IMG/VR virus record: IMGVR_UViG_3300042197_004934 | Coordinates: 1 to 27,458 of that record | Direction: 5' to 3' (one strand) | DNA length: 27,458 bases | Source: a virus | Shown here: piece after piece, positions 2,203 to 24,211 of the stretch | Position numbering within the stretch: position 1 is the first letter of the stretch | Layout of the letters: every line of letters begins with the position of its first letter | Notes under the pieces: model-generated | The model's input: only the letters and a program-made list of their open reading frames with translations | Database searches by the model: none | Told to the model about the DNA's origin: nothing | Translations under genes and position numbers: made by a program

Positions 2203-3033
2203 ATGGCATTAACATTTTCCGAGTACAAGCAAATAAGGGATAAAAATAACTTTGATTATAAATTTAATAAACTTTGCGAAAACATAGTTTTAAGTAATTT
2301 GAGTTTTGAACAATATTGGGAAAATTATGCCGTCCCGACACTTTTAGAATCCACTTTTGTTTCGAACGAAGAACAATTGTTGAATGAATTTTTTGGCTTG
2401 TTCGGAGGAAAAAAACAAGCACCCTCACAACCTGCTCCAAATTTTGATTTTTTAAATCCACCGCCACCACCGCCACAAAAACCCTACGGTTCGGGTGTGT
2501 CATCAGTAAATGCTCCAGGCACAGGCGTGTCTTCCACAAACGATCCTGATTTAATTCAAAATTACCAAGCAATGCAAAAAGATGCACAAGAAAGAAAAAA
2601 AGCAGAGCGTTTGGGTCAATTTCAAAAAAACATAGATTCTCAAATAGAAACTGTGAAGCAGCGTTTTTCTACCGCTATGAAAGATTTTTTGAAAGCCATG
2701 ACAAATGATGCAAAGCAAAGTAATGATCCTCACATGTGGAAAATAGCACAAAATTTTTATAAAAAAATACTTTCTGTGGCACAACCAGTTGTTGATGAGT
2801 TTAAAATGCAAGCTAGATATGGCAAGGCTTCATACGCTGACAACTTCAACAGACTAACAAGTCGTCATCAACAAAAAACACAAGATTTTTACGGCAATCT
2901 AGGCAAATCTGTTGCTGGCAACGCTCCTCCTTCTAATGTAGGCGGAAGCCAGTCCCCATCACCTGCTTCAAGTATTATTATGCCTGGACAGCAGCCTCAA
3001 AGACAACCTCAAAAAATTTGGACTCCCGGTTAA
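2203..3033 (+). CDS. Possible internal head protein with proline-rich linker
   Basis: A 276-residue protein of unknown function. ATG is preceded by GGAG at 2192-2195. The N-terminus MALTFSEYKQIRDKNN resembles, more weakly than others in this window, the F-x-x-W/Y start of candidate capsid-targeted proteins; an LCE tripeptide at 24-26 would fit the T4 gp21 (L/I)-x-E cleavage rule. A low-complexity region (about 75-115) has a run of six prolines and two GVSS(V/T)N repeats. It is followed by a basic, helical, glutamine-rich segment (115-230) and a disordered Pro/Gln/Ser tail. It lies between terminase and portal, where T4 encodes tail sheath and tube, but resembles neither. Function is inferred only from the N-terminus. 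Confidence 0.75.
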   Translation: MALTFSEYKQIRDKNNFDYKFNKLCENIVLSNLSFEQYWENYAVPTLLESTFVSNEEQLLNEFFGLFGGKKQAPSQPAPNFDFLNPPPPPPQKPYGSGVSSVNAPGTGVSSTNDPDLIQNYQAMQKDAQERKKAERLGQFQKNIDSQIETVKQRFSTAMKDFLKAMTNDAKQSNDPHMWKIAQNFYKKILSVAQPVVDEFKMQARYGKASYADNFNRLTSRHQQKTQDFYGNLGKSVAGNAPPSNVGGSQSPSPASSIIMPGQQPQRQPQKIWTPG

Positions 3034-3071
3034 AGAAGTTAAATTTAGCATTTTGATTCATTAATATTTTC

Positions 3072-3593
3072 ATGTTAAATGGAAAATATGAATACTCATC
3101 GGTCCACATAGAGGCTCCCTGCAATCTATCAAAAAAGATTATCGACTGGGGAATTAAAAATATTCAGGATAACGATCTTTATTATTCTAAAAAAAAAGAA
3201 GTTAATTTTGGAAGAGAAGATGAAATTCATGTGACAATTTTATATGGAATCCACTCTGATTGTCACAAAAAAACAACAAATATAATAAAAGATTATGGAC
3301 AGGTTAATTGTTGTTTAGGAGAAATTAAAATATTTAAAGATCCAGAGGATTATGATGTAATTGTGATAGATGTTTTGAGTGAAGATTTGTTTAAATTAAA
3401 TGAATTGGTTATTAAAAACATTAAACACACAAACAAATACAAAACATACAAACCTCATCTGACAATAGCCTATGTAAAAAAAAATAAAAATTGGGACAAA
3501 CTAAACAAAGATTTTTTTAAAGATATTAAATTTACTTCTAACCACGCAGTTTTTTCATCCAAAAATGGATTGAAATATGGATTTTTCCTCTAG
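3072..3593 (+). CDS. 2H phosphoesterase (2'-5' RNA ligase / cyclic phosphodiesterase-like)
   Basis: The 173-residue protein has the two H-x-T motifs that define the 2H phosphoesterase superfamily: HVTILYG with H53 and HLTIAYV with H129, spaced as in the usual two-lobed fold. Family members hydrolyse 2',3'-cyclic phosphates or 2'-5' linked oligonucleotides, or open cyclic nucleotides. Phage members include T4 57B (Acb1), which degrades the cyclic oligonucleotide signals of CBASS immunity, so a counter-defence role is a reasonable hypothesis; RNA end processing is the alternative. No Shine-Dalgarno is evident before the ATG. The 3' end overlaps the convergent minus-strand gene by 39 bases. Confidence 0.85.
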   Translation: MLNGKYEYSSVHIEAPCNLSKKIIDWGIKNIQDNDLYYSKKKEVNFGREDEIHVTILYGIHSDCHKKTTNIIKDYGQVNCCLGEIKIFKDPEDYDVIVIDVLSEDLFKLNELVIKNIKHTNKYKTYKPHLTIAYVKKNKNWDKLNKDFFKDIKFTSNHAVFSSKNGLKYGFFL

Positions 3594-3989
3594 AGTTGGA
3601 TTCCATAAAGAAGATGGAGATCTTTTTTTGTATTGTTTCAACCCCTGCATCCTATAAGACCAGTAATCTTCGGCCTGTTTTTTGCTATAATTGTATTTAT
3701 TTTTTAGTTCTTCTTCACAATCTTTAAAATCACATGACCAAAATATAATTTTATAATATTTACATAGGTGTTTCATGGTGAAATCTTTATTGTGGAAAAC
3801 AACATCGACCCAAACACTCACAGAACTGTTGCGTCTGTGAATTTGAGATGTGAGTAACAAGGTGTCTGTTGGGTGTTTATAACTATTACCAGTTTCAAAA
3901 ACTTGAATATAAGAATTTTTTTCTAATAATTTTGATAATTTTTCCCAACCAGAACCTAAGTGCGTCATTATAAACAATGTGTTGTGCAT
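3555..3989 (-). CDS. Short sulfotransferase-like P-loop protein (tentative)
   Basis: A 144-residue minus-strand protein. Its N-terminus has a strand then THLGSGWEKLSKLLEKN (9-25), resembling the 5'-phosphosulfate loop of PAPS-dependent sulfotransferases. The later layout also recalls that fold: VDVVFHNKD, then YYKIIFWSCDF, then a helix with A-E-D-Y-W-x-Y-R near the C-terminus. It is much shorter than usual sulfotransferases (250 or more), so it may be a minimal or degraded member. A second, clearer sulfotransferase is at 21618-22355. It is convergent with the 2H phosphoesterase gene and divergent from the portal gene. The assignment is from pattern only; an unrelated nucleotide-binding protein is possible. 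Confidence 0.55.
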   Translation of the reverse strand: MHNTLFIMTHLGSGWEKLSKLLEKNSYIQVFETGNSYKHPTDTLLLTSQIHRRNSSVSVWVDVVFHNKDFTMKHLCKYYKIIFWSCDFKDCEEELKNKYNYSKKQAEDYWSYRMQGLKQYKKRSPSSLWNPTLEEKSIFQSIFG

Positions 3990-4070
3990 ACTCTAATACA
4001 ATAATAGAAATTTAAATTTAAATTAATAACTACTTGAGTCAATTATTTTTGACAGGAACGGAGAAATCTA

Positions 4071-6653
4071 ATGTGGTGGGATTTTTTTAAAGTATTTACA
4101 TATGCCTTTACTGAAGATCCTTTGTCAGAAAAGAACAAAAATGTTCTCACAGGTGCTGGCGTTTCGCAACTTGATGCAATACCTGATTTAAGATCAGGAA
4201 ATGAGGGATCAATAGGTGGCGGCACATCAATTAGACTAAGAGATACAAATGATTTTGTTGATCTTTCCACCGTAACAAATAGGATTCATCGATATAAAGA
4301 GTATGAAAGACTCAGAAATATGCCAGAAATTGAAATGGCAATGACAGTTTTTGCTGACGAAACCTGTCTTTCTGGCGACACAAGGGTTTCTACACCACAA
4401 GGCATGAGAACACTAAAAGATTTAGCGGAGAACGAGAAAGAAAGATTTCTTGTTTATTGTTATGACTTTGATAAACAAGACTACACCTTGGGTTGGGCAC
4501 ATAGTGCCAGAAAAACCAAAACAGCTAAAACTATAAAAATTATATTTGATAATGGAGATCATGTGGTATGCACACCAGACCACATGATCTTAAACGCTAA
4601 TGCCGAATGGGTTTTGGCCGGAAGTTTAAAAACGGGCGATGAGTTGATGCCCTTTTATAGAATTGAAGCAAATCCAGATTTGTCAAATAGCAAGGTAAAT
4701 CAATTCCCAAGAATTTATTCAACTGTTCATGGATGGATACACGAAAGACAATTTATTGATCAATGGAGAACCGGCAAGATACCAGAAGAGTTACAAACAC
4801 TAAACAGATATTGCCGGATGATAGCAGATGGTTTAAACATTCGACAGATTAAAAAAATTACACACAATCAATTCAAAACTGTTCGTGATAGGTTGGCGAA
4901 ACATGGTTTTTCAAACAAAGAACTAAAATGGCTTGGCACAAAATCAAAAACAAGACGAGTGGTTTCAGTATTTGATTATAAAGAAATGGACGTATACGAC
5001 CTATCTGTAGATGATCACAAAAATTTCGCTACGGAGTGGGGTATAGTTCACAACTGTCAGAGAGACGATTCTGGTAGGGCGTTTCAAATACACACAAAAA
5101 ACAGTGATGCAAAAGAAGAACTTGAATTTTTATTCTTTCACAAAAAGATGTTAAATTTTGACCAGAAAAGAATTTGGAATTTAGCAAAATTACTTTTTAT
5201 TTATGGTGATTTTTTCTATGAAGTTATCATAAATCCAGAAAACCCATCAGAGGGAATTTACAATCTTATACCGCTTCCTGCTGATTCAATGTATAGATTA
5301 GAAACCACCAAAGGCAAACTGTTGGAATTTCAACAGTCAAAAGAAGGACCAGATTATCAAAGTTTGGCAAACGTTGACATAACTCAGGCCACGGATGCCG
5401 ACTTGCAACAATCTACAGCCATTCGATTTGCTCCTGAGCAAATCGTACACATTCGAATTGGAGATGATAGAAAAACTTTTTATCCTTACGGCGTTTCTTT
5501 GATGGAAGCAGCAAGAGGTCCAGCACATCAATTACGATTAATGGAAGACGCTATGGTTGTTTATAGATTATCAAGATCTCCAGAGCGAAGAGTTTTTTAT
5601 ATAGACGTTCAACAATTGCCACCATACAAGGCCGAAGCTTTCATAGAGAGAATGAAAGATCAATTCAAGAAAAAGAAAGTCCCTAGCACAGGTCGAGCAC
5701 CCGGAGCCTCGTCTGTTGAGGAAAGATGGCAAACCCCTGCTGTTGATGAAGATTTTTGGATTCCAATTCGTCCTAATGCAAACACCAGGGTGGAAACGCT
5801 TCCTGGAGCAAGTAATTTAGGGGAAATAGACGATGCTCTTTATTTCAGAAACAAATTATTTACAGCACTAAATTTTCCAAGAAATTATTTTAACAACGAA
5901 GATGTTAACAGCACCAGAATAGCCTTATCTGCTCAAGATGTAAAGTTTGCCAGGATGATTGAAAGATTACAAAGTCATATCGAAGATGCTTTATGGGAAG
6001 TCTGCAATCGTCATCTTAGATTACAAGGGTATCCTGAGGAGTCTTATGATGATCTTGCTGTTAAGATGACTCCGCCCTCGGATTGGCGTGAACTCACAAG
6101 GGCGGAAGTGGTTACAAATCGTTTAAATAATGCTTCAAACTTAAAGAGTGCTATGTTACTTAGTGATTATGACATACTAACAAAGTGGCTCAAATATAGT
6201 GATGAAGAAGCCAAACAAATGATAGCAAGATTGAAAATTCAAAAACTTGATGATCTTAAATTGCAAATTGTTGCACAAAATCCTACACTATTGGGAGTTG
6301 GATTGCCAAATCCAAACGAACCAGAAATAGGAACAGATCCAGGTGGACCAAACCCAATGTTGGCACCAGATGCTGGTCAACAAATGCCACCAGATGCTGG
6401 TCAACAAATGCCACCAGATGCTGGTCAACAAATGCCACCAGATGCTGGTCAACAAATGCCACCAGATGCTGGTCAACAACCCGTTCCAGGAATGAAAAAA
6501 TTCATGGATACAGATAAGCAAGTTCCAAAGTCTGGTAGTGGAATGCCAATACCAGATGCTTCTGAAGAGGATATTAAAAAATATAACTTAGACATTAAAG
6601 ATTTTGAAAAAGAGATGGATGAAGAAGAAGTTGACATGAGTGAAAACCTATGA
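4071..6653 (+). CDS. Portal protein (T4 gp20-like) precursor containing an intein
   Basis: Forms the portal ring at the head vertex through which DNA enters and the tail joins. The 860-residue precursor holds an intein at residues 99-328; the spliced product is about 630 residues (T4 gp20: 524). Portal hallmarks in the exteins: RIHRYKEYERLRNMPEIEM before the intein, then RVFYIDVQQLPPYKAE, EDFWIPIRP, VETLPGASNLGEIDDALYF and KLFTALNFPRNYF. The C-terminus adds five PDAGQQ repeats (from 6366) and an acidic tail ending DEEEVDMSENL. GGAG at 4060-4063 precedes the ATG. The stop overlaps the next gene by ATGA, implying translational coupling. Confidence 0.96.
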   Translation: MWWDFFKVFTYAFTEDPLSEKNKNVLTGAGVSQLDAIPDLRSGNEGSIGGGTSIRLRDTNDFVDLSTVTNRIHRYKEYERLRNMPEIEMAMTVFADETCLSGDTRVSTPQGMRTLKDLAENEKERFLVYCYDFDKQDYTLGWAHSARKTKTAKTIKIIFDNGDHVVCTPDHMILNANAEWVLAGSLKTGDELMPFYRIEANPDLSNSKVNQFPRIYSTVHGWIHERQFIDQWRTGKIPEELQTLNRYCRMIADGLNIRQIKKITHNQFKTVRDRLAKHGFSNKELKWLGTKSKTRRVVSVFDYKEMDVYDLSVDDHKNFATEWGIVHNCQRDDSGRAFQIHTKNSDAKEELEFLFFHKKMLNFDQKRIWNLAKLLFIYGDFFYEVIINPENPSEGIYNLIPLPADSMYRLETTKGKLLEFQQSKEGPDYQSLANVDITQATDADLQQSTAIRFAPEQIVHIRIGDDRKTFYPYGVSLMEAARGPAHQLRLMEDAMVVYRLSRSPERRVFYIDVQQLPPYKAEAFIERMKDQFKKKKVPSTGRAPGASSVEERWQTPAVDEDFWIPIRPNANTRVETLPGASNLGEIDDALYFRNKLFTALNFPRNYFNNEDVNSTRIALSAQDVKFARMIERLQSHIEDALWEVCNRHLRLQGYPEESYDDLAVKMTPPSDWRELTRAEVVTNRLNNASNLKSAMLLSDYDILTKWLKYSDEEAKQMIARLKIQKLDDLKLQIVAQNPTLLGVGLPNPNEPEIGTDPGGPNPMLAPDAGQQMPPDAGQQMPPDAGQQMPPDAGQQMPPDAGQQPVPGMKKFMDTDKQVPKSGSGMPIPDASEEDIKKYNLDIKDFEKEMDEEEVDMSENL
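4365..5054 (+). mobile_element. Intein in the portal protein, endonuclease motifs absent
   Basis: A 230-residue in-frame insertion with class 1 splicing signatures. It starts with C1 (CLSGDTRVSTPQG), has a block B with T-x-x-H (CTPDHM, T168/H171 of the precursor), a block F (VYDLSVDDHKNFA) and ends VHN followed by Cys329 as the +1 nucleophile. The middle (about 190-305) has no LAGLIDADG or HNH motif. It does hold a helix-turn-helix-like stretch (ADGLNIRQIKKITHNQFKTV), which may be the remnant DNA-binding part of a lost endonuclease. All splicing residues are present, so splicing should be active. It sits at ADET/CQRDD in the portal. Confidence 0.93.
6366..6479 (+). repeat. 24-bp tandem repeat in portal C-terminus
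   Basis: Four identical 24-base units beginning ccagatgctggtcaacaaat (6366, 6390, 6414, 6438) and a fifth partial unit (6462-6479) encode PPDAGQQM repeated. Identity at the DNA level, including third codon positions, points to recent expansion by slippage or unequal recombination. The segment is a flexible Pro/Gln linker near the portal C-terminus. Confidence 0.95.
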
Positions 6654-6883
6654 AATCAATCATTGCAGAAGCTCCAAAAAGAGCATTAAAAAATCGTGAA
6701 GAAATATCTAAAGCAACCAAATGCAGTTGTTATAGTTGTTTTTCTACGTTTGACCCCAATGAAATTAAAAACTGGACAGATCAGAGCAAGACTGCCATTT
6801 GCCCAAATTGTTCGGCAGACACTGTGTTGCCCGAAGAGTTGAATATGGACACTTTGAAGCAGATTAAAAATTACTGGTTCTAA
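6650..6883 (+). CDS. Small zinc-ribbon protein
   Basis: A 77-residue protein with two Cys pairs, CSCYSC at about 25-30 and CPNC at about 51-54, the spacing of a zinc ribbon, followed by SADTVLPEEL. Similar small zinc ribbons with the pattern F-x-P-x-E-I-x-x-W are common as uncharacterised phage and bacterial proteins. The ATG overlaps the portal stop (ATGA), so it is probably translated by coupling. Its 3' end overlaps the convergent minus-strand gene by 4 bases. Function unknown; nucleic-acid or protein binding is likely from the fold alone. Confidence 0.82.
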   Translation: MKSIIAEAPKRALKNREEISKATKCSCYSCFSTFDPNEIKNWTDQSKTAICPNCSADTVLPEELNMDTLKQIKNYWF

Positions 6884-7227
6884 GCGTCTCCACCAAAACC
6901 ACTATCTGCTTCTGAGGGTTTAACTTCTTCTTTTTCTTCTGGGTGTTCTGGTTTTTTACCCAGTCTCAAGAAGTGGTTTTTATCAATTTTTCTAAGCATC
7001 ACAACAATTTCGTTATCTCCACGTTGTGCAAGTGTGTGAAAAAAATCCAAAGTTTCTTCGGGATATTTTTTCATAGCAATGTTAAATAAATCTTTTTTTA
7101 CTTTGTCATGATCGTCTGCATAGTCTACGTCTTGATCATTAAATTTGTACTTATCCACAAAATTTTCTTCGTCATTCATGTTTTCTTTTAATCGCTTATT
7201 ATTAAGCCAATCTGTGAAGTTGTACAT
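6880..7227 (-). CDS. Candidate capsid-targeted internal protein (F-x-x-W family)
   Basis: A 115-residue acidic protein of unknown function. I start it at ATG 7227 because AAAGAGGA lies 5-8 bases upstream; an upstream TTG at 7242 would put the Shine-Dalgarno inside the gene. The N-terminus MYNFTDWLNNKRLKEN fits the shared motif of this window: F4, W7, L8, then LKE at 13-15 as a possible gp21-type cleavage site. The rest is helical and charged (FNIAMKKYPEETLDFFHTLA) and ends in a Gly/Asp/Pro tail. A TATAAATA octamer at 7293-7300 on this strand is a likely late promoter, giving a leader of about 60 bases. Confidence 0.8.
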   Translation of the reverse strand: MYNFTDWLNNKRLKENMNDEENFVDKYKFNDQDVDYADDHDKVKKDLFNIAMKKYPEETLDFFHTLAQRGDNEIVVMLRKIDKNHFLRLGKKPEHPEEKEEVKPSEADSGFGGDA

Positions 7228-7393: not shown

Positions 7394-9214
7394 ATGAGAA
7401 GAAGACTCATTAAGCAAGATGCCTTTGATAAAATCGTAAACGAATCTGTTTCCGCAGTTAAACGTGAACTTGTTGCAGCAGAGCCGATTTTGGCAAAAGC
7501 AGTGGATAAAACCTATCTTCGTCTGAAATCATTCACAGAATCAACAGTTCTCTACGAATCTGCCGAGGACACTTTTGTGCATGCTGGATATGAAGTTAAA
7601 AATGGACAACTTACCTTCAACAACGTAGAAGAATTAGTCGTTGACGAAGAATCACAAAAAGAAAAACGTAAAACAACGCTCTCAGAGATGATCGACGCTG
7701 TTTTAATTGATAACAACGATAAAGCCAATGAATTGTTTGATAATTATGTCGGCATGATACGTTGGAATGAAGCCAAGAAAAAAGAAGAAGATTCCGAAGA
7801 TGAAGATGAAGATATGCCAGCTTTCTTGAAAAAGAAAAGCAAAAAAGAAAAGAAATTACCAGCTTTCTTGAAAAATAAAAAGAAGAAAGCAAGCAAAAAA
7901 CATGACGAAGAAGAGAAAAAAGAAATCGTCAAGAAAATCAAAAAATCCGATAAAGATCTTGCAGAAGCCTATGTTACTTCTCAAAATGTTTTAGAGTATG
8001 TTGAGTTTATGAAGGTTGGCCCAAGTCTCGCAGAATCAACTGTTAAAACCGACGAGAATGGTAACCTTACCAACATCAAGATCCCAACCAGTAAGGTTCG
8101 TAACGAAAACAGAATGTTACGAAGTGATTGGAAGGGTTTAAATGCAAAAGTTGCTGAAACCAGAAACAAAGTTGCTGGCCTTGTTGAAAATCAAGAATTT
8201 TGCAAAGCAGTTGCTGTGTTGAAGAGGCAAAATGCTTTTGCTGATGCACAAGGACTTGAGGAGGCTTTGGAGGTTGTTGTTCAGCAATATCCAGAAGTTC
8301 TTTACGCAACCCAATCCGAATTAGCCGAAGTTGTGAAAGAGGCCCTAGAAGTCGTTGGTGCCACAAATTTTGATGACAAGGTTTGCGAGTTCATGGCCGA
8401 AGGCATCTTGAGAAAAGCACACGATGCCTACTCTGAAAAGGTTTCCCAAGTACTACACCTTGCCTCTGCAAACAAAGTAGAAGAAGGTGTTGATCCTTAC
8501 TCTTTCTTCCAATCTGTGGTCGAGAAATTCTACCCATCATTGGATGAAAAATTTGGATTGGAACGCAAAGTTTTTAGCGATCTCTATGAATCACTTGAAG
8601 TTGTTTACAAGAAAGCCGAACGCAAAGGCGTCAAATCGGTCATGAATGAAACTGCATCTTATCTCAACGATCTGGCTGCTGTTTTAAACAACGAAGTTAA
8701 ACCCACTTTAGAAATCGCTGAGGAAACAGCCGAGTATCTTGCTTTGCTAATCGAAACCAATCTCGAATCAGGAATTTGGGTTGTTTCTAACAAACCACAC
8801 GAAACTCTTAATGGAGATCATCCAGAGATGAGCAAAAAGGCTGCTCATGGATATGCTCCATCAAAAGACTTCTCTGGCGATTACGGCGATCCTCTCCCCG
8901 CAGTAGGATCAGATGATATGCGTTACAAGGGTGGCAAACACTCAAAAGAAATGAGAAATAAAGGCATGGGTCAAGAAGGCGGAAACGATGTTTTCCCAAG
9001 CCTTAAGAACCCTTATGTGCCAACTCCTTTCGGAACTTACACCATGAAAGGTGAAAAAGGAGTTGATAAAGATAAAGGCGACTTGCTGAGCGGATCCAAA
9101 GACACTTTCCCAAACCTGAAAAACCCTTACGTACCAAAAGAAGAGGTTGGAACAGGCGGAAAAGGTTACAAAATGAATCACGGCAAAGAAAAGGATTTAG
9201 TTGTTGACAAATAA
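7394..9214 (+). CDS. Probable prohead core / internal head protein, 606 aa
   Basis: I do not recognise the family. It sits between portal and prohead protease, where T4 has core genes 67 and 68, and leads the operon to the capsid gene, so a prohead core or internal head role is inferred. RBS GAGGAG is at 7381-7386. The N-terminal third ends in an acidic run (EEDSEDEDEDM, about 131-141) and a strongly basic 14-residue duplication, PAFLKKKSKKEKK then PAFLKNKKKK. The middle (about 190-470) is long and helical. The C-terminus has two copies of FP(S/N)LKNPYVP in a Gly/Lys-rich tail. The alternating acid and basic blocks suit DNA- or scaffold-contacting core proteins. Confidence 0.75.
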   Translation: MRRRLIKQDAFDKIVNESVSAVKRELVAAEPILAKAVDKTYLRLKSFTESTVLYESAEDTFVHAGYEVKNGQLTFNNVEELVVDEESQKEKRKTTLSEMIDAVLIDNNDKANELFDNYVGMIRWNEAKKKEEDSEDEDEDMPAFLKKKSKKEKKLPAFLKNKKKKASKKHDEEEKKEIVKKIKKSDKDLAEAYVTSQNVLEYVEFMKVGPSLAESTVKTDENGNLTNIKIPTSKVRNENRMLRSDWKGLNAKVAETRNKVAGLVENQEFCKAVAVLKRQNAFADAQGLEEALEVVVQQYPEVLYATQSELAEVVKEALEVVGATNFDDKVCEFMAEGILRKAHDAYSEKVSQVLHLASANKVEEGVDPYSFFQSVVEKFYPSLDEKFGLERKVFSDLYESLEVVYKKAERKGVKSVMNETASYLNDLAAVLNNEVKPTLEIAEETAEYLALLIETNLESGIWVVSNKPHETLNGDHPEMSKKAAHGYAPSKDFSGDYGDPLPAVGSDDMRYKGGKHSKEMRNKGMGQEGGNDVFPSLKNPYVPTPFGTYTMKGEKGVDKDKGDLLSGSKDTFPNLKNPYVPKEEVGTGGKGYKMNHGKEKDLVVDK

Positions 9215-9233: not shown

Positions 9234-9929
9234 ATGGATCAGATGTTACTCATCGATTGCTGTGCTAGCTCTGGATTCGAACTACAACTTAGTGAGTCCG
9301 CTATGAAAGGTGGACTCACTAAATTTCGTGGCAAGTTCCAAGAGGCTGAAGCAGTAAATAAAAATAAAAGAATGTACCCTTTTGATGTGCTAAGTGAAAA
9401 CATTGGCCGTCTTCAAGAGGCAATAGATGATCGTAGACTTGTTGGTGAGTTAGATCACCCAACAGACTCTATCATACATTTCGCAAATACATCTCACGTA
9501 GTTACCAAACTATGGTGGGAAGGAAACGTTCTCATGGGCGAGGGCGAAATCCTAAACACACCGTCTGGTATGATTTTGAAAAGTCTTATTGATGGCGGCG
9601 TTAAAGTTGGTATCAGTTCAAGGGGAGTTGGTAATGGAAAGGTGAACGAAGATGGCATTCTTGTCATCGGTGAAAGTTACAAACTTATCACATTCGATGC
9701 CGTTGCAGATCCCAGCACTTTTGCTGCATTCCAAGAAAAAGTCGTTGCTAAAGGTGAGAGTTTTAATCCTCAAGTTAAAGAGCAAATTCGTAATTCACAA
9801 CAAAAATCAAAAATTGCTATGAAAAATGAAAGCTCCGGCATACATAATGTTAACAAAGAGGTATTGATCGCTTACTTAAGCGGCTTTGTAAAATCTCAAA
9901 CACAAGAAATTAAGTCGAGGTTAGGCTAA
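9234..9929 (+). CDS. Prohead protease (T4 gp21-like)
   Basis: Serine protease that matures the prohead by cutting scaffold, internal proteins and capsid protein after (L/I)-x-E in T4. The 231 residues (T4 gp21: 212) show KRMYPFDVL (about 45-53), catalytic His75 in GELDHP, the serine motif GISSRG (126-131; S128 or S129) and FDAVADPS with D155/D159. This is the order H, S, D of the T4 prohead protease family. AAGGAG precedes the ATG. The stop TAA overlaps the scaffold ATG by one base, coupling protease and scaffold translation. The C-terminal 50 residues are basic and probably a removable propeptide. Confidence 0.94.
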   Translation: MDQMLLIDCCASSGFELQLSESAMKGGLTKFRGKFQEAEAVNKNKRMYPFDVLSENIGRLQEAIDDRRLVGELDHPTDSIIHFANTSHVVTKLWWEGNVLMGEGEILNTPSGMILKSLIDGGVKVGISSRGVGNGKVNEDGILVIGESYKLITFDAVADPSTFAAFQEKVVAKGESFNPQVKEQIRNSQQKSKIAMKNESSGIHNVNKEVLIAYLSGFVKSQTQEIKSRLG

Positions 9930-10825
9930 TGGATAAAATTACTGAAGCATTGAAGAGCATCCTTCCTGCTGAGCATGTCAATGAGGTTGCCAAAGCCGTC
10001 GAAGAAATGATGGCTGAAAACGTCGCTGCACTTGAAGCGGAGTTCCAATCCAAATTGGACGAGGCTTATGAGCAACTTACTGAAGAGCGTAAATCTGATG
10101 AAGCCATTGCTGAAAATGGTTATCAACAAGCTTATGACATGATTCAGTCTTTGATGGCTCGTTTGGATGAACAACGTGAAGAATTCGAAACAGCGTTAGA
10201 AGAAGGCTTTGAAGAAGCCTATGGCGAACTACAAAAAGAAAAAGGTCGCAATGAAAATCTTGAAGTAGAAATATATGAAGAAGCCGATAAGAAACTTCAA
10301 GAAATGAAGAGCATGATGGTTGACAAACTCGATCAATTCTTGTCACTACAAGAACAAGAAATGTACGAGTCGGCCAAACGTGATGTTCTCAGCGATCCAA
10401 GCATACTTGAACAAAGAGTTGCAGTTGAGAAGATGGCTGAAGTCCTCGCTGATTATATCGGTGACGACACTATCAACAATGTAACATCGGCCAAACTTGA
10501 AGAAATGCAAAAACAACTTGAAGCCCTTAAAGGTCAAATGAGAATTATTGAAGCCAAAAACGTTCGTCTTGCTACTCAAAACAACAAGTTGACCGAGCAA
10601 GTCCGTGAGGCTCATGAAGTGATTACCGAGGCTGCAAAAGCCGAGAAAACGAATAGATTGAATAAGAAAGAGAATGCAAGTGGGCGTGGACAAAGAGTTG
10701 TGAACGAGCAAATCATTAGTGAATTTGCTGCTCCAACTAACAAATCGGAAAAAGAGACTGACCTGCGTGAGGGTCATGATCCTTTAGCCGATCTTCTGGT
10801 TCTTTCAGGTCTTGAACAAACTTGA
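9929..10825 (+). CDS. Prohead scaffold / core protein (T4 gp22-like)
   Basis: Assembly core around which the capsid forms and which the protease then degrades. The 298 residues (T4 gp22: 269) are acidic and helical with extended coiled coil. Typical of the family are EEADKKLQEMKSMMVDKLDQFL (about 115-137, matched in pattern) followed by AKRDVLSDPS. Two GY/GF-x-x-AY repeats occur 29 residues apart (ENGYQQAYD at 62-70, EEGFEEAYGE at 91-100). A Ser/Gly/Arg linker (about 248-255) precedes a short C-terminal segment ending PLADLLVLSGLEQT. The start overlaps the protease stop. Many L-x-E tripeptides offer cleavage sites. Confidence 0.92.
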   Translation: MDKITEALKSILPAEHVNEVAKAVEEMMAENVAALEAEFQSKLDEAYEQLTEERKSDEAIAENGYQQAYDMIQSLMARLDEQREEFETALEEGFEEAYGELQKEKGRNENLEVEIYEEADKKLQEMKSMMVDKLDQFLSLQEQEMYESAKRDVLSDPSILEQRVAVEKMAEVLADYIGDDTINNVTSAKLEEMQKQLEALKGQMRIIEAKNVRLATQNNKLTEQVREAHEVITEAAKAEKTNRLNKKENASGRGQRVVNEQIISEFAAPTNKSEKETDLREGHDPLADLLVLSGLEQT

Positions 10826-10870: not shown

Positions 10871-12316
10871 ATGAACGCACGTTTCCTCAACGAAGCACGT
10901 GAGATCGAGACCAGATGGTCCAAGCCTCTTCGTAACGGCAAGTCGATGCTTGACGGCATCACCGACCGCTACGAGAGAGCTTCTGCCGCTGTTCTTCTCG
11001 AAAATCAACGTCTTATGAACGAAGCTATGACCGACACCGGTGACATTTCGCAATTCAAAAGAATTTCGATACCACTCGTCCGTCGTATCTATCCACAATT
11101 GATCGCCAACAAAATCGTTTCGGTCCAACCATTACTTGGCCCAACCGGTTTGGTCTACTATCTCCGTTTTAGATACTCTTCAAACAAGGGTGCTATGCGT
11201 GGTGCTGACCTCAATAGCGGCTATCCAAGCGACGACGCAACATCGTTACAACAACTTGCTAGCGGTGATGGCAATTTAGATATCTTCTACACACATCAAT
11301 TTGTTCAAAATGAAACAAGTTCGACTGATGCTGGCGGAGATACAACTTCGGTGTACGCTCCACTTGAGCACACCCCAGTTCTTGCCGGAACCTTGACTGG
11401 CACCGTTTATGACGGCACAATTGCTGTTCAAACATTTGTTGTTGCTGAGAATGGAACTTTCACCTTCACCGACATCGGTACTCCTGCTGCCAAAGCAACT
11501 GGCGGTACTGTTGATCTCGTGACCGGCGAAATGACCCTTACTTGGAACAGCGATCCAGGTGCTAACAGTGTTGTTATGTCGTATGAATACAACATGGAAT
11601 GCAACCAAGATTTGCCAGAAGTGAATCTCGTCGTGGAAAGCGAAGAAATCGCTGCCAAGACCCGTAAACTGAAGGCTGCTTGGAGCTATGAGGCTCAACA
11701 AGACCTCCGCTCACAGCATAACCTCGACGCCGAGGCTGAACTCACTGCCGTTTTGGCACAAGAGATCAATCTCGAAATCGACCGAGAAGTGCTCACGGAT
11801 TTGCGTAACAACGCAGGTACGGTTGCTGTGTGGGATTTCAATACTGCTCTCGGTGACACCATCAAAGAGAAGTATGAATCACTCTACGTGAAGGTTGTTG
11901 AAGTCAGCAACGTTGTGCATCGTAAGACACTTCGTGGTGGCTGCAACTGGCTCGTGACTTCACCTGAAGTTGCATCAGTTTTCGAAACTGCTACAGCCGG
12001 TTTTGCACCAGCACCAAGTGAGACTTTCACAAGTTCACTCGGCATCCAATATGTTGGCACAATCAACAATCGTTGGAGACTGTATAAGGATCCATTGTTC
12101 CCACAAGGTCAAATCCTCATGGGCTACAAGGGCGACAGCTACATGGACAGCGGATACTTCTACTGCCCATACGTGCCACTCACCCAGACCCCAGTCGTAC
12201 TCGACCCAGAATCCTTCTGCCCACGCAAGGGAATCCTGACTCGATACGGAAAGAAATTATTGAGGGAAGGGGCAAAATTTTATGCCAGAATGTCCATCGC
12301 CAACTTTATCGTTTGA
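10871..12316 (+). CDS. Major capsid protein (T4 gp23-like)
   Basis: Forms the capsid hexamers. The 481 residues (T4 gp23: 521) carry the family core LVRRIYPQLIANKIVSVQPL and TGLVYYLRFRYS (about 75-105), WSYEAQQDLRSQHNLDAEAEL, GGCNWLVTSPEV and the C-terminal KDPLFPQGQILMGYKGDS. The N-terminus (MNARFLNEAREIE) should be removed at maturation, probably after LLE44 or MNE51. A beta-rich segment (about 167-240) rich in Thr, Gly and Val looks like an inserted surface domain. AAAGAGGG precedes the ATG. The codons are C-rich (CTC, ATC, TTC, AAC) compared with the AT-rich neighbours, as expected of a very highly expressed gene. A strong terminator follows. Confidence 0.96.
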   Translation: MNARFLNEAREIETRWSKPLRNGKSMLDGITDRYERASAAVLLENQRLMNEAMTDTGDISQFKRISIPLVRRIYPQLIANKIVSVQPLLGPTGLVYYLRFRYSSNKGAMRGADLNSGYPSDDATSLQQLASGDGNLDIFYTHQFVQNETSSTDAGGDTTSVYAPLEHTPVLAGTLTGTVYDGTIAVQTFVVAENGTFTFTDIGTPAAKATGGTVDLVTGEMTLTWNSDPGANSVVMSYEYNMECNQDLPEVNLVVESEEIAAKTRKLKAAWSYEAQQDLRSQHNLDAEAELTAVLAQEINLEIDREVLTDLRNNAGTVAVWDFNTALGDTIKEKYESLYVKVVEVSNVVHRKTLRGGCNWLVTSPEVASVFETATAGFAPAPSETFTSSLGIQYVGTINNRWRLYKDPLFPQGQILMGYKGDSYMDSGYFYCPYVPLTQTPVVLDPESFCPRKGILTRYGKKLLREGAKFYARMSIANFIV

Positions 12317-12360
12317 TAAATTTGACGTTCGCATTGCAGCATAAAACTCAATGTAAAATT

Positions 12361-12395
12361 GAAACCGCATGGGGAACCATGCGGTTTCTTTTTTA
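12361..12395 (+). terminator. Rho-independent terminator after the capsid gene
   Basis: A perfect 12-bp stem (gaaaccgcatgg / ccatgcggtttc), four-base loop ggaa, and a run of T residues. It closes the head-assembly operon 45 bases after the capsid stop. Confidence 0.93.
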
Positions 12396-17357: not shown

Positions 17358-17381
17358 GTGATTCCTCGTGGGGGCTTATGG

Positions 17382-17389
17382 TATTTATA
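17382..17389 (-). promoter_or_regulatory. T4-type late promoter octamer, minus strand
   Basis: The minus strand reads TATAAATACC 25 bases before the ATG at 17357, with the RBS between. It is one half of a divergent pair with 17407-17414, the two octamers being 17 bases apart. Confidence 0.6.
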
Positions 17390-17406
17390 AAAACCGAGTG
17401 CGAATC

Positions 17407-17414
17407 TATAAATA
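17407..17414 (+). promoter_or_regulatory. T4-type late promoter octamer abutting a start codon
   Basis: TATAAATAT ends five bases before the A of the ATG at 17419. There is no Shine-Dalgarno, so the transcript would be leaderless or nearly so. The spacing is the same as at 13548-13560. Confidence 0.5.
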
Positions 17415-17418
17415 TGTT

Positions 17419-18492
17419 ATGAAAACATTTAGGGAATGGATACAGAATAAGAAACAAAAGCTACATGAAGTGGTCCAGACGGTGGGTGCCGGAACTATTA
17501 ATTATTTTGCCAAAAACATATTGGCAGATCTTCAAAAACCTGATATTCGGGTTGGCAGGATAAAGGGTTGGATTTATGAGATGTTGACACGTACTCCCGA
17601 GGTATCTGACGATGTAATTCCTAAGGGGTACGATGAAAAATACATGGTGAATTTGCCCAAGATACCTGTGCCTAGTCACACAAAGGTTATAGAAAGTGGT
17701 GGATTCGTTCATTTTACAACGAACACAAATCGACCTAATCGACAACGAATTGGGGATCAAAACGAAGCTAAGGTCACCCTCAAACAATACTTTAGTTTAA
17801 ATACTGCTGTTGAAAATTTAAAAGAAACTTTAAATTATTTGTTTCGAACTGTGCCTGTTTTAGCAGTTGAGTTGCATAAGATTGCTGTCAAGAACAACGA
17901 TCAGATAAATTTCAAAATTCCTGATCAGCTTTATATGTTCATGGAACATCCTGACACGATAGTGGTTCATTATTACAATCCGACATCTGGTCCAGAAATA
18001 CGGCAAGTAGTTGACCGTTTGTTTCCCGATCAAGCTGATCGTGGTTTGCGAGTTAAGTCTGGGTTTGATGTGAATCATCCTAGCCTGCAAAATTCTGGAA
18101 CTGATACCGGCGGCAGTCATACTGAGTTGATCGCTTGGGCGGTGGCTGGCACAATTATAGGAGCCAAGGATAAAGTTTTAAGTAAATATGATGCGAATTC
18201 TTTTGGCCAAAAGCTTTTAGAAGTAGTAAAAATGTTTGGTGAAATGGACCAAAGAACTCTTTATGCTGCATATCTTAAAGCACAAAAATTAGAAACCCCC
18301 ACGAATCAGCCTCAGCGACGCAACAGTCTTCAGGCTATGAACGATCTTATAGCGGCTTTTAAAATTGGAAAAGTAAATAAAACGCAGGCAAATCAAGAGG
18401 TTGATCGGCTTGTAGACGAAAACCCAGAGATGGATAGAAGTGCGTTTGTAAGCTATATAAATGGTGTATTGGGAAGCCACGTAGTTGCATAA
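17419..18492 (+). CDS. Candidate capsid-targeted protein, possibly HopA1-like
   Basis: A 357-residue protein when begun at ATG 17419. I reject the GTG at 17368 because the ATG places the shared motif at the N-terminus: MKTFREWIQNKKQKLHE, with F4, W7, I8 and LHE at 15-17. The body shows QYFSLNTAVENLKETLNYLF, then PDTIVVHYYNPTSGPEIRQVV, GLRVKSGFDVN, GGSHTELIAWAVAGTI and NSFGQKLLEVV. This series resembles the HopA1 effector-like family, which is related to phospho-Ser/Thr lyases; the match is by eye and low confidence. A late promoter octamer abuts the start. The next gene begins 8 bases after the stop and has the same N-terminal motif. An injected effector is an attractive inference, not shown. 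Confidence 0.75.
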   Translation: MKTFREWIQNKKQKLHEVVQTVGAGTINYFAKNILADLQKPDIRVGRIKGWIYEMLTRTPEVSDDVIPKGYDEKYMVNLPKIPVPSHTKVIESGGFVHFTTNTNRPNRQRIGDQNEAKVTLKQYFSLNTAVENLKETLNYLFRTVPVLAVELHKIAVKNNDQINFKIPDQLYMFMEHPDTIVVHYYNPTSGPEIRQVVDRLFPDQADRGLRVKSGFDVNHPSLQNSGTDTGGSHTELIAWAVAGTIIGAKDKVLSKYDANSFGQKLLEVVKMFGEMDQRTLYAAYLKAQKLETPTNQPQRRNSLQAMNDLIAAFKIGKVNKTQANQEVDRLVDENPEMDRSAFVSYINGVLGSHVVA

Positions 18493-18500
18493 GGAACAAT

Positions 18501-18902
18501 ATGAAAACATTTGAAGAATGGTTAAAATTACAAGAAGGCGGTCGGTTGAGTGGGCTTTCGTATGGAGGCAGATCGTTGGCCGACAAGTATGGAAGTTATC
18601 TCAGACCGCTTACCGATGATTTTCATCCCAAAACGGGAATGTTGCGTGAATTGAGCCAAGCTGTTCAGCAACAAGTAATTAAAACTCTTGAAAGAACAGG
18701 ATTGAGTTTATCTCGTCATGGTAATCGTTTTGTTGTTAAGGATTCGGAAGGAAATGTGGAGTTTGAATCAAGCGATATACAAGATCTTGTAAAAACCCTA
18801 CAAGACGCTTATGGATCTGGTGACGACAATGATTTGTACCATCCAAATGCCAGCATACGTGCCAGTGCGGTTCGCAGGATGGAGTTACGAGACAAAAAAT
18901 GA
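18501..18902 (+). CDS. Candidate capsid-targeted internal protein, 133 aa
   Basis: The N-terminus MKTFEEWLKLQEGG is almost that of the preceding gene: F4, W7, L8, then LQE at 10-12, a predicted gp21-type site that would leave Gly13 as new N-terminus. The remaining 120 residues are basic to neutral (RLSGLSYGGRSLADKYGSYL, then a strand-like region SRHGNRFVVKDSEGNVEFE and a C-terminal helix). I recognise no domain. AAGGAA at 18491-18496 precedes the ATG. The stop overlaps the next start as ATGA, so the three genes from 17419 to 20326 form one transcription and translation unit. Confidence 0.82.
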   Translation: MKTFEEWLKLQEGGRLSGLSYGGRSLADKYGSYLRPLTDDFHPKTGMLRELSQAVQQQVIKTLERTGLSLSRHGNRFVVKDSEGNVEFESSDIQDLVKTLQDAYGSGDDNDLYHPNASIRASAVRRMELRDKK

Positions 18903-20326
18903 AAAACTTTGTTGATTGGCTTAAACAAAAATTAAATGAAAATGAAGATCCCAAAACTATTCGTGATTTGGGAATTGATGGTGTTCCAAGTGGCGTGCAA
19001 AAACAAATTGATGTTTTTGCAAGTGATGACTGGCTGCGTGCTGTAGACGCTGGACGAGAGTACCAAATGATAAAATTTGCCGATGTTAAATTTGACTCGG
19101 TTGAAAAATACTATGCAAACTTAGATCAATCAATAAACACTATTCGTGATATAAAAACTCTAAAGATTGGTCAAAAAATTGCCGATTACGCAATCAGGAA
19201 AACTCCGTATTGGGTTGTTACCGGCACGGATGAAATTAAAAACATTGTTTACCTTGATCCGATCAAACCGAATCCATACGTTCCAGACGCTTCCGGGAAA
19301 ATAGTGGGTGCCGGGGGGCATGAATTTACAGCACATGATTTTGATGTGATGAGTGGAGAATACGAATCAAGAAAAATTGATAATTTGCTTGATATAATCA
19401 ATTCAAAGAACTATCACGATCCACGAGACGTTGCTTATATCCTGTTGGGAACAGTGCCTGTTCAATCTGGGCCAAACGGATCTCAGGGGGGCTGGTATAA
19501 TGTGCTTGATAAACACAATCGTGGTAGTTTAAAGTCAATGACACCTGAACAGATCATACAAAAAGATGCAGAAACATTAAAAAAACTTGGGTTTTCTGTG
19601 CCTGTTAAGTCCTTGAGTGGAAAAATCAAGCCGGATATTTGGAACGCATATGTTGAGGGAGGATATGTTCCTCATGGTCAGGAACAAGAATCTCAATTAG
19701 AAGAAGAAGACTTTCAAGATCCTCAAACTATGGCAAAAATTATTTTAACACATAATCAACCTCAAATTCGTGAAAGAAATGCTGATCTGTTAATAAAAAT
19801 GTATTCGGACAATCCGGATGGTTTTGAACCTTTGATCCGGGATGTATCAATAAAACTTGCTGCACAACCACAATTCGGTAAAGATTTTGATCGCAATTAC
19901 AACGTTAAAGGAAAATTTATTTGGTTGGCTTGGCATAAAAAATGGCGAGATGTTTTGGATGCTTTTCAAGACAGTCCAGAATCCGATAACAGACGCTATG
20001 TTTCACATGGATACAAAGAACTAGGGAATGTCAATAGCATCATTGAAATGATTAAAAAAGAAACCAGTTCTGAGGCTGTGTCGTCTATGTTAAATGATTT
20101 GTGGAACATGAAGTTTGAAGGAAAGGTTCCCTACTTTACTTCGGCTGAGCAAAAAGATTCTATTTATAAAAAACTTTTTGAAGAAGATGCTGAATCTAAA
20201 GATGTGGTGGTATTCTTTTGTTCAAACAAAGACAAAATTAAAAAAGTTATAGACAATCATGAATATCACAAAAAAGATGGTGCTATCATTTTTGATAGGT
20301 TTAGCAAGTTGTGTGAGTTAATTTAA
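18899..20326 (+). CDS. Candidate capsid-targeted internal protein, 475 aa
   Basis: Begins MKNFVDWLKQKLNENE, with F4, W7, L8 and LNE at 12-14. No known enzyme motif is visible. Residues 30-240 are mixed alpha/beta and contain NPYVPDASG, similar to the NPYVP pair in the 606-residue head protein. Residues about 265-285 are an acidic linker (EQESQLEEEDFQD). The C-terminal half is helical (ADLLIKMYSDNPDGFEPLI, KFIWLAWHKKWRDVLDAF) and may form an alpha solenoid. Translation is coupled to the previous gene through ATGA. If the targeting idea is right it is a large packaged protein, comparable in scale to T4 Alt, though no ADP-ribosyltransferase motif is seen. Confidence 0.82.
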   Translation: MKNFVDWLKQKLNENEDPKTIRDLGIDGVPSGVQKQIDVFASDDWLRAVDAGREYQMIKFADVKFDSVEKYYANLDQSINTIRDIKTLKIGQKIADYAIRKTPYWVVTGTDEIKNIVYLDPIKPNPYVPDASGKIVGAGGHEFTAHDFDVMSGEYESRKIDNLLDIINSKNYHDPRDVAYILLGTVPVQSGPNGSQGGWYNVLDKHNRGSLKSMTPEQIIQKDAETLKKLGFSVPVKSLSGKIKPDIWNAYVEGGYVPHGQEQESQLEEEDFQDPQTMAKIILTHNQPQIRERNADLLIKMYSDNPDGFEPLIRDVSIKLAAQPQFGKDFDRNYNVKGKFIWLAWHKKWRDVLDAFQDSPESDNRRYVSHGYKELGNVNSIIEMIKKETSSEAVSSMLNDLWNMKFEGKVPYFTSAEQKDSIYKKLFEEDAESKDVVVFFCSNKDKIKKVIDNHEYHKKDGAIIFDRFSKLCELI

Positions 20327-22643: not shown

Positions 22644-23096
22644 ATGTTAAATGAAAAAGACAAAAGTTGGTTTTGGAATGTGTTTGGCGGGGCCATGATG
22701 AGCATTGTTTTTGTTTTATTTTTATCGCATATTAACAATACAAACAATAATATTGATAAAAGTTTTCTGTCTTTAAAGACAGAAATAAAAGAACTATCTG
22801 TGGTCCTGGACTCTCAGAAAGAAAGAATTGTTGGCTTGGAAAAAAATCGTGAAATTGACAAAGAAAAAGATTGTTTGTTAGAAAATAATATTAAAAATTT
22901 AGAAAATTTTTTGAATGAAAATAAACAAAAATTATTAGTTTGCGAAACTCAAATATCGTCTATGAAAGAAGAAATCAAAATAATATCTGAGGTCAACAAA
23001 GATTATTTAAAACAAATTCAAATCATGAAAGAGAAAATGGCCGCTGATGAGGCCACCAAAAAAGCAAAACAAGAATCTACAAGCCCAAATCCTTAA
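22644..23096 (+). CDS. Membrane-anchored coiled-coil protein
   Basis: A 150-residue protein with a short cytoplasmic N-terminus, one transmembrane segment (about 14-31, VFGGAMMSIVFVLFLSHI) and a long coiled coil (about 40-135) predicted outside the membrane. A charged, disordered Ala/Lys/Ser tail follows. This is the plan of an i-spanin, which links inner and outer membranes at lysis, but no lysis gene or embedded o-spanin is visible nearby, so the reading is tentative. GGGA lies before the ATG. The 3' end overlaps the convergent minus gene by 20 bases. Confidence 0.7.
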   Translation: MLNEKDKSWFWNVFGGAMMSIVFVLFLSHINNTNNNIDKSFLSLKTEIKELSVVLDSQKERIVGLEKNREIDKEKDCLLENNIKNLENFLNENKQKLLVCETQISSMKEEIKIISEVNKDYLKQIQIMKEKMAADEATKKAKQESTSPNP

Positions 23097-23346
23097 GTTT
23101 GTCACGTTTTTTCTTGTTTTTCTTTTTCTTTTTCTTGTGTTTCTTTGATACTTTTTTTATCTCGGGACTTAACAACTCTGGGTGAACGTCGCTATGTGTT
23201 GTTGCAAATGCATTTAGATGACCAGCAACACTCGGGGCAAAAGCAAGAGGAGGAAGTTGTCCGCTTCCGTAAAGAGGAGGATATATTCCTAGTGCGGTTC
23301 GTTTACCACGTTCATTTAACCATTGTGTAAATGATTGCAAAGCCAT
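23077..23346 (-). CDS. Basic candidate internal protein with capsid-targeting-like N-terminus
   Basis: An 89-residue protein. The N-terminus MALQSFTQWLNERG has the shared F-x-x-W-L (F6, W9, L10) and LNE at 10-12 as a cleavage-like site. The middle is Pro/Gly-rich and the C-terminus very basic (SKKHKKKKKKNKKKRDK), as in T4 internal proteins that sit with the DNA. Its ATG overlaps the stop of the upstream 54-residue gene by one base (TAATG), and AAAGGAAA is upstream, so it is the third gene of a minus-strand operon beginning at 24211. Confidence 0.83.
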   Translation of the reverse strand: MALQSFTQWLNERGKRTALGIYPPLYGSGQLPPLAFAPSVAGHLNAFATTHSDVHPELLSPEIKKVSKKHKKKKKKNKKKRDKLKDLGL

Positions 23347-23510
23347 TATGCGTTTCCTTTTTCACGATCCAAATTTAAAAGTAACATATTTTTGTCGAAT
23401 TCATCTTTGGTAATTAGCTCTGCCGCTAACATTTTTTCAAGTTTCTTTTTTCTTTTTTCGTAATCATCGTCTGTCATTTCTTCAAAAACCCAATTTTTAA
23501 AATCTTTCAT
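23346..23510 (-). CDS. 54-residue protein with the shared F-x-x-W start
   Basis: A short gene easy to overlook. It starts MKDFKNWVFEEM (F4, W7, V8), matching the other candidate targeted proteins, though the tripeptide here is VFE rather than LxE. The rest is helical and charged (YEKRKKKLEKMLAAELI, then a Asp/Glu/Lys helix). The body has the look of short phage proteins with an EKRKKKLEKML-x-x-x-LI-T-K-x-E-F pattern. AAGGTG precedes the ATG, two bases after the nuclease-like stop, and its TAA overlaps the next ATG. Continuous coupling with both neighbours is the main evidence that it is real. Confidence 0.8.
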   Translation of the reverse strand: MKDFKNWVFEEMTDDDYEKRKKKLEKMLAAELITKDEFDKNMLLLNLDREKGNA

Positions 23511-23512
23511 AT

Positions 23513-24211
23513 TTACACCTTATTTATTGGAAAACGCTCTTCAACCACACTCTCAACAGGAATAAAAGCCATAACTTTGTTGGGCGTGAAACTGTTTGGG
23601 TCTGGGTCACGTGTTGGTCTTAAATCTATGCCATTTGCTGCTTTAAAAGGTCGTGTTAATCTTCCGCCAAAGTAACTCAGGTTCATTTCACGTATCGCCT
23701 CCAACACAGCGTTTTTTAATCTAAAAGCTGGAACGTAATAGATTTCTGTTTCTGTTTGGTTTAAAACAAAATAGTGTTCCACTTTTGTTCCTCGAAAATC
23801 ACGACCTTGTTGATGATAATTTTCTAATTGCTTTGAAAGCAACTGGGTGTTGTCGTGGTTTCTTAAGACTTCATATGCTATATCATTTCGCCCTGGCTTA
23901 AAACTGCGTCTTAACTTTATTTGAACTGGGTCTTTTTGGTTTCCACCAAGATAACCATCTATCTTAAACTTGGCGTCTGTTCTATAGTCCGAGGCGGGGG
24001 TTATTTCTATTCCATGTTTGCCAAGTTGGTCTATGATGAATTTTTCACCTATATCACGACCTTGAGCCATCCTGTCTTCGATTGGCAAATTGCTAAAATC
24101 TTTTTGAATCATACTTGATGTTTCAACGTAATCTCTAAAACCCTTCGTGGTTGATTTATTCTTCATTTCGTTTATATATTGATTTGTTCTTTGAATTTGA
24201 TAAGATCGCAT
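23513..24211 (-). CDS. PD-(D/E)XK nuclease-like protein
   Basis: I begin this at ATG 24211 (232 residues); starting at 24331 would run far into the divergent methyltransferase gene. No strong RBS decides between 24211 and 24166. The core GRDIGEKFIIDQLGKHGIEI (about 51-70), KIDGYLGG with D85 and VQIKLR with Q97-I-K99 fits the PD-(D/E)XK fold in its D...Q-x-K variant, with E56 as the helix acid. The C-terminal region is mixed and unrecognised. It is first in an operon with two F-x-x-W proteins. A DNA-processing role in head or early infection is possible; the substrate is unknown. Confidence 0.6.
   Translation of the reverse strand: MRSYQIQRTNQYINEMKNKSTTKGFRDYVETSSMIQKDFSNLPIEDRMAQGRDIGEKFIIDQLGKHGIEITPASDYRTDAKFKIDGYLGGNQKDPVQIKLRRSFKPGRNDIAYEVLRNHDNTQLLSKQLENYHQQGRDFRGTKVEHYFVLNQTETEIYYVPAFRLKNAVLEAIREMNLSYFGGRLTRPFKAANGIDLRPTRDPDPNSFTPNKVMAFIPVESVVEERFPINKV

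Follow-up and report, generated by a model that had tools for sequence, protein, structure and literature searches.

Tagged protein starts in huge T4-related phages resemble the capsid targeting sequence of T4 internal proteins

In phage T4, the prohead protease gp21 is reported to cleave after [LI]-x-E, and amber-suppressor work on internal protein IPIII traced targeting mainly to residues 4 and 7, with residues 8 and 10 serving in processing (PMC9026906). The three T4 internal proteins (IPs) are described as injected inhibitors of type IV restriction enzymes. A leader resembling their capsid targeting sequence (CTS) has been used in T-even phages to predict packaged proteins encoded by ip genes; at least 10 Ips are reported from T-even relatives, where the ip locus is a hotspot of turnover (PMC12373910). 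A gp21 relative in SPN3US and phiKZ is likewise described as cutting head proteins after Glu; many of the propeptides exceed 100 residues and are cut at [SA]-x-E, and some paralogues have short conserved starts (PMC5694885). Here we analyze a comparable N-terminal tag encoded in IMG/VR virus record IMGVR_UViG_3300042197_004934, positions 1 to 27,458 (the window, 27,458 bases in all), which is a piece of a huge T4-related phage, as read from its head genes.

Six of the 31 window genes encode proteins that start with M-x(2-4)-F-x-x-W-[LIV], at the positions and with the readings given in a first-pass annotation made from the sequence alone:

7183-7227, minus strand: tag MYNFTDWLNNKRLKE, residues 1-15 of gene 6880-7227 (minus), predicted cut after L-K-E15.
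17419-17469, plus strand: tag MKTFREWIQNKKQKLHE, residues 1-17 of gene 17419-18492 (plus), whose body is an ORFan.
18501-18536, plus strand: tag MKTFEEWLKLQE, residues 1-12 of gene 18501-18902 (plus), with a tagged homologue at G001 447547.
18899-18940, plus strand: tag MKNFVDWLKQKLNE, residues 1-14 of gene 18899-20326 (plus).
23311-23346, minus strand: tag MALQSFTQWLNE, residues 1-12 of gene 23077-23346 (minus), with a near-identical tagged homologue at G001 452961.
23481-23510, minus strand: tag MKDFKNWVFE, residues 1-10 of gene 23346-23510 (minus), lacking L-x-E, with a tagged homologue at G001 453227.

Across the 31 genes (8,356 positions, stops counted) F-x-x-W-[LIV] occurs eight times, and six of these occurrences fall inside the first 6 residues. 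When the proteins were shuffled one by one, such starts arose in a mean of 0.019 genes, with a maximum of 2 in 5,000 rounds. The aromatics are exactly F4 and W7 in five of the six tags and are shifted by two in the other. The L-x-E that had been noted at residues 10-17 in five of the six is there (L13-K-E15, L15-H-E17, L10-Q-E12, L12-N-E14, L10-N-E12), and the sixth tag, that of 23510, has V-F-E in its place. The bodies are unrelated, as had been claimed: blastp groups at E 1e-4 never join two of the six. We found two relatives of the 18899 protein (L229 and L230), both of which conserve F4, W7, L8 and N13-E14 of its tag, and one relative of the 6880 protein; none was confirmed for 17419 in viral contigs.

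The capsid protein of the window is 98% identical to that of the 458,813-base contig G001, and the closest record among phage genomes is LR756511 (an uncultured phage, 595 kb), at 78%. We searched related huge-phage contigs, taking in G001, G008, G002 and LR756511 entire and G005 except 320001-323421. Genes were called by a home-made script ignorant of the motif, and N-termini with at least 12 of AILMFVWC among the first 20 residues were left out (14 of 143 in the set of 129 tags). F-xk-W-[LIV] starts with k=2 number 17 in G001, 11 in the first 320 kb of G005 (G005a), 11 in G008, 9 in G002, and 20 in LR756511, and every other k in the range 0-6 gives at most 5 in each of the five contigs. In 72 further gp23 loci (697 genes, repeats removed), the counts for k=0 to 6 are 1, 0, 33, 1, 0, 1, and 0. 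A DNA pattern that needs no gene caller matched 38 times in 12 contigs, compared with 7 matches for its reversed control.

We also scored N-termini with a ten-column profile, trained in each case on the other contigs (leave-one-out), with a cut-off score of 7 and expectations taken from the shuffled N-termini of the same contig. Scores of 7 or more were obtained for 38 of 633 genes in G001 (1.0 expected), 27 of 431 in G005 (0.1), 26 of 838 in G008 (0.6), 15 of 288 in G002 (0.6), 43 of 1052 in LR756511 (0.9), and 6 of 32 in the window (0.0). The genome-wide motif search that the first-pass annotation proposed as a check thus yields a clear excess in the relatives, both by the k=2 spacing and by the profile. 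The commonest letters of the tag are M-K-T-F-K-E-W-L-E-E-E-E. The second aromatic place holds W in 63, F in 47 and Y in 19 of 129 tags, and the first F lies at residues 2-7 in 178 tagged genes (residue 4 in 83, residue 3 in 44). Tagged genes are dispersed along G001, LR756511 and G008, with median lengths of 140-189 aa. After exclusion of three of the 179 tagged genes that lie across a 20-kb border, blastp divides the remaining 176 proteins into 136 groups, of which 90 hold a single protein. Five adjacent tagged paralogues of 565-583 aa are encoded at G002 169016-177625; one of them was included in a Pfam scan and gave no match.

A weaker seventh member had been proposed at 2203. Its profile score of 5.3 is indeed below those of the six (9.5-13.2), and it may be a worn member of the set, since its distant homologues begin MRSFTEFLEEN (L067, 24% identity, E 1e-6, fully tagged) and MNFNEYREH (L023):

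2203-3033, plus strand: gene of the weak seventh member, start MALTFSEYKQ, with F5-S-E-Y8-K.

Behind the tag, [LI]-x-E is present in 78 of 178 tagged genes and in 380 of 2841 untagged genes (Fisher 2e-21); with the fixed Leu excluded, the counts are 57/178 and 340/2841 (Fisher 1e-11). Column shuffles of 170 non-redundant tags gave an expectation of 39.2 for the 74 observed, a value reached in 0 of 2,000 shuffles (an earlier run with 119 tags gave 59 against 30.1 expected). The same 170-tag shuffles revealed no excess of [LI]-E, [LI]-xx-E, [LI]-xxx-E, [LI]-x-D, [LI]-x-Q, [LI]-x-K, or [LI]-x-N. Simple counts (129 tags versus 2143 genes) had raised [LI]-x-Q (21 vs 140), [LI]-E (39 vs 240) and [LI]-xx-E (31 vs 201), and these were rejected as signals because Leu and Glu are common in the tag. 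The [SA]-x-E motif of the phiKZ/SPN3US type is not enriched behind the tags (A-x-E in 11/178 vs 104/2841, Fisher 0.07; S-x-E in 8/178 vs 103/2841, Fisher 0.33).

The first-pass annotation had also named a gp21-like protease, and such a protease is encoded in the window among the following head genes:

1-1827: terminase.
4071-6653: portal.
7394-9214: conserved 606-aa head-operon protein.
9234-9929, plus strand: gp21-type prohead protease (PF03420, E 5.4e-27, window 9303-9737; PHROG 207, E 1.5e-48).
9929-10825, plus strand: presumed scaffold or core protein, in the gp22 position between the protease and capsid genes.
10871-12316, plus strand: gp23-type major capsid protein (PHROG 138, E 1.4e-83).

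We presume that the protease is the enzyme that cuts the tags and that the scaffold is their docking partner. The presumed scaffold gave no match in a PHROG search; it contains 19 [LIM]-x-E sites, versus 9.4 expected from composition. The predicted cut in the window capsid protein is M49-N-E51/A. The corresponding region matches [LIMV]-x-E-[AGS] in 31 of 70 capsid proteins and departs from it in 39, some of which have [MI]-N-E-V.

The conserved positions of the huge-phage tags are usually 4, 7 and 8, and the first two of these are the targeting residues of IPIII. When the profile trained without T4 was applied to the 257 T4 genes, ipI ranked 4th, ipII 9th and ipIII 10th; the chance of three IPs inside the top ten is 4e-5. 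The first place was taken by gene 61.1 (NC_000866 18966-19130), which has a score of 10.5 and encodes gp61.1, a 54-aa protein starting MKTFKEFIKED. Judged by its sequence, gp61.1 may be an unrecognised internal protein of T4. The T4 starts given in the first-pass annotation are correct in part: IPII and IPIII begin MKTYQEFIAEA, IPI begins MKTFKEF, and Alt does not share this start (MELITELFDED in NC_000866). Its suggestion that the Trp form is a distinct version of the T4 tag also needs adjustment. Trp at the second aromatic place is absent from all 257 T4 genes and all 554 genes of phage CBB, and in the huge-phage clade it is the commonest form, with about half of the tags, but not the sole one.

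The tag occurs in two states within one enzyme family. Homologues of the 2'-5' RNA-ligase-like enzyme of the window have the tag right before the conserved start in six contigs, in two of which (G002 and L033) Trp is the first aromatic, and the same family is untagged in eight others, including G001 and the window itself:

3072-3593, plus strand: 2'-5' RNA-ligase-like (Acb1-type) enzyme, untagged.

Of 16 homologues of this 2H family, ten were at first counted as untagged; two of these ten, which start inside the body in the gene calls (LR756511 534205 and L018 705), were dropped. A tree of the remaining 14 needs three changes of tag state, and its well-supported branches force at least two. 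The cut-off of PF23474 (Acb1, anti-CBASS) was passed in five of six records (G001, G002, G005, G008 and T4), with LR756511 below it; the huge-phage matches score 32-37 bits, compared with 202 bits for T4 57B. Turnover is also seen in the window cassette at 17419-20326. Two of its tagged genes are common to the window and G001 (18501/447547 and 18899/448786) and the third differs, as the window 17419 gene has no G001 counterpart and G001 has 447946. By sequence, the tag is a module.

Residues 4 and 7, the ranking of the T4 IPs, and the coupled [LI]-x-E all link the tag to the T4 capsid targeting sequence, and together with the strict genome-wide spacing they agree with the capsid-targeting role suggested in the first-pass annotation. 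We estimate at about 0.85 the probability that the F-x-x-W-[LIV] start serves as a CTS like that of the T4 IPs, with Trp at the second aromatic place as a form common in this huge-phage clade, whose capsids are of the gp23 type. As the prohead assembles, the two aromatics (usually at residues 4 and 7) would dock the protein on the scaffold core. The gp21-type protease would then cleave at the [LI]-x-E close behind, with loss of the tag, and the mature body would be retained in the head and enter the next host together with the DNA. A protein that gains the ten-residue tag would become cargo, which would account for dozens of unrelated tagged proteins per phage.

Several observations weigh against this explanation. 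The T4 IPI-III scores of 2.5-3.8 lie far under the cut-off of 7, so their placing is a ranking that is suggestive and not a detection, and at score 5 no excess is seen in T4 overall (1 vs 0.8 expected). Alt of T4 has a propeptide as well and ranks about 120th; the profile therefore misses some head-targeted proteins. The stretch tested lacks [LI]-x-E in 100 of 178 tagged genes, and [FYW]-x-E is in slight excess (22 vs 14.9, reached in 48 of 2,000 shuffles). Late promoters of the T4 type have no clear link to tagged genes: TATAAATA lies within 60 nt upstream of 4/43 tagged and 8/590 other genes in G001, similar to three control octamers of the same composition (3/43 and 12/590), and of 0/29 tagged and 0/809 other genes in G008. 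Moreover, gene starts derive from our own simple caller, and it is from T4 that we infer packaging, cutting and injection, as well as docking.

Other explanations could account for parts of these data. The tagged proteins could be core or scaffold helpers that stay or are degraded in the prohead and are neither injected nor active in the host. In T4, several core proteins are reported to be cut up and then leave the head (PMC9026906), and one tagged gene is syntenic within the head operon. At the position of window gene 6880-7227, 2.5-6.5 kb before the capsid gene, a minus-strand tagged gene is found in 28 of 42 readable records (34 further records are too short to read), and some of the 14 genes counted there as untagged begin with MF-x-x-WL, a start outside the reach of the profile. 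This minus-strand gene inside a plus-strand operon may encode a core protein. For the tagged set as a whole, we consider such a helper role unlikely, because many tagged proteins are enzyme-like and the T4 IPs with a leader of this kind are described as injected (PMC12373910). An address other than the head, such as a phage-made compartment in the cell, the membrane, or a component of the tail or baseplate, is harder still to reconcile with the coupling to [LI]-x-E, which fits gp21 specificity, with positions that coincide with the IPIII targeting residues, and with the high ranks of the T4 IPs. We regard it as doubtful, even though an N-terminal aromatic pattern by itself leaves the receptor unnamed, tagged genes are spread across the contigs, and low-confidence models have a helical tag start, as in many docking signals.

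Common descent and artefact are far less probable. A few tagged groups are paralogous, such as the five G002 proteins of about 570 aa, yet the division of the 176 proteins into 136 groups and the roughly three changes of tag state on the 2H tree make it very improbable that the tagged proteins are ordinary paralogues with an inherited N-terminus. Chance or biased start calling could be suspected because a home-made caller sets the starts. We give this next to no credence: the caller is blind to the motif, backgrounds came from other spacings and shuffled N-termini, phages CBB, HTVC008M and LIS04 show no excess at score 7 under equal treatment, and the caller-free pattern has the same imbalance.

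It is somewhat more likely than not that each virion in this clade delivers an arsenal of about 25-45 different proteins, all with a ten-residue F-x-x-[W/F/Y]-L label, so that counter-defences would be ready before the first phage transcript. With comparable confidence, we predict that the delivered set would include Acb1-type phosphodiesterases, ADP-ribosyltransferases, C39-like peptidases, HD/poly(A)-polymerase-like proteins, HAD phosphatases and FMN reductases. These candidates come from a Pfam scan of 169 of the 176 tagged proteins (79 in a first set and 90 in a second, for which 25 of 33 families were listed), excluding six weak LR756511 starts and a false window call at 26190. The open reading frame at 26190-27458 contains a repeat unit resembling GGILAGGVALETAVYN.

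Among the matches listed, each Pfam family has one or two tagged members in a set: PolyA_pol 1 + 2 (first and second set), Peptidase_C39_2 1 + 2, HD 1 + 1, and Toprim_2 1 + 1, with one each of Arr-ms, FMN reductase, Acb1 and radical SAM in the first set and of HAD_SAK, tRNA_lig_CPD, NIF and thymidylate kinase in the second. Ten tagged proteins were checked singly. Five exceeded the family cut-off (Arr-ms, 122 aa; PolyA_pol with HD, 720 aa; FMN_red; 2H/Acb1; and a NIF phosphatase), one had a NUDIX match below it, and four had no match. A possible S-adenosylmethionine lyase in a tagged G008 protein (E 3.8e-6) is not claimed, as its 19.4 bits fall below the family cut-off. An anti-defence use of the cargo is plausible by analogy, as the T4 IPs are injected and inhibit type IV restriction enzymes; that most cargo counters host defence is speculative.

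A search of solved structures gave no match below E 0.04. Predicted structures of two window cargo proteins had mean predicted local distance difference test (pLDDT) values of 40.7 and 41.4, which are useless, and for this reason no fold search was made. Small tagged proteins with a body like LGLYP..YG.GQYPPLY are encoded at window 23077-23346, G001 323493, G005a 136128, and LR756511 71311, 502604 and 589654. Five such proteins fall in a single blastp group, and the window protein and its G001 copy form a separate look-alike group.

Elsewhere in the window, five stretches align with G001 at 82-93% nucleotide identity, and 12313-14717 and 17359-18890 are unaligned. Homing endonuclease family matches lie at 12452-15056, beside the capsid gene, and at 24764-25315, towards the window end. 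The portal gene has an apparent intein-like insert (C-LSGDTRVSTP ... VHN-C) and DAGQQMPP repeats at its end, both read by eye. Between the portal and the head-operon genes, 6650-6883 encodes a 77-aa protein with the start MKSIIAEA and CxxC pairs; its I-A-E/A is similar to the IPIII cut site of T4.

Other T4-like phages tested have none or a handful of tags, judged by profile and DNA-pattern counts. Scores of 7 or more were found for 1/554 genes in CBB (0.3 expected), 1/257 in T4 (0.1), 1/370 in KVP40 (0.3), 0/189 in HTVC008M (0.1), 2/210 in S-SSM4 (0.1), and 0/242 in LIS04 (0.2; last 1.6 kb left out). KVP40 may have a few tags, as 6 genes reach score 5 compared with 1.1 expected. The Trp DNA pattern gave 4 matches and 9 control matches in seven records, four of which are profile-tested phages. 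Atu_ph07, CBB, RaK2 and T4 pooled gave 7 and 6 (Atu_ph07 alone 3 and 1, RaK2 alone 1 and 1), and LR756511 gave 7 and 1. Virion proteomes have been published for CBB and Atu_ph07 and were considered as a test, but they are unusable for it: CBB lacks a tag excess, and the search of Atu_ph07 covered the DNA pattern alone (3 matches, 1 control).

Many huge-phage proteins have no known role, and a label for the head, and probably for the cell, would make dozens of orphans per genome testable as delivered effectors and anti-defence proteins. The practical value would be high because the label is readable in uncultured phages: lists of predicted injected proteins could be drawn up from sequence alone for phages that have not been cultivated. 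The T4 sorting signal would then prove to be a cargo system of general use, on which this clade draws much more than T4 does. The tags and their cargo would also offer new material for protein delivery via phage heads. In open-licence PMC full texts, preprints excluded, we found no earlier description of huge phages with a CTS across the genome, with its Trp form, or with dozens of such proteins per genome.

The closest described system is the CTS of T4 IPI-III, which is likewise N-terminal, with aromatics at 4 and 7, a hydrophobic residue at 8, [LI]-x-E behind, unrelated bodies and a gp21-type protease. The T4 IPs have Phe at the second aromatic place, where the huge-phage tags often have Trp, and T4 has three IPs, whereas each huge-phage contig has 15-43 tagged genes (score 7), many with enzyme-like bodies. 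The turnover in the window cassette is reminiscent of the ip hotspot in T-even phages (PMC12373910), and both have a leader and changing cargo, but the huge phages are distant and their repertoire is larger and scattered. Unlike in SPN3US and phiKZ, [SA]-x-E is not enriched behind the tags. The Acb1 family PF23474 is common to T4 (57B) and four huge-phage contigs, where the matches are weak; six huge-phage homologues of this family are tagged, whereas 57B is outside the top twelve T4 profile scores listed. The kind of signal is already known from T4, and what is new is its scale, the Trp form, and the enzyme cargo, including an Acb1-type protein.

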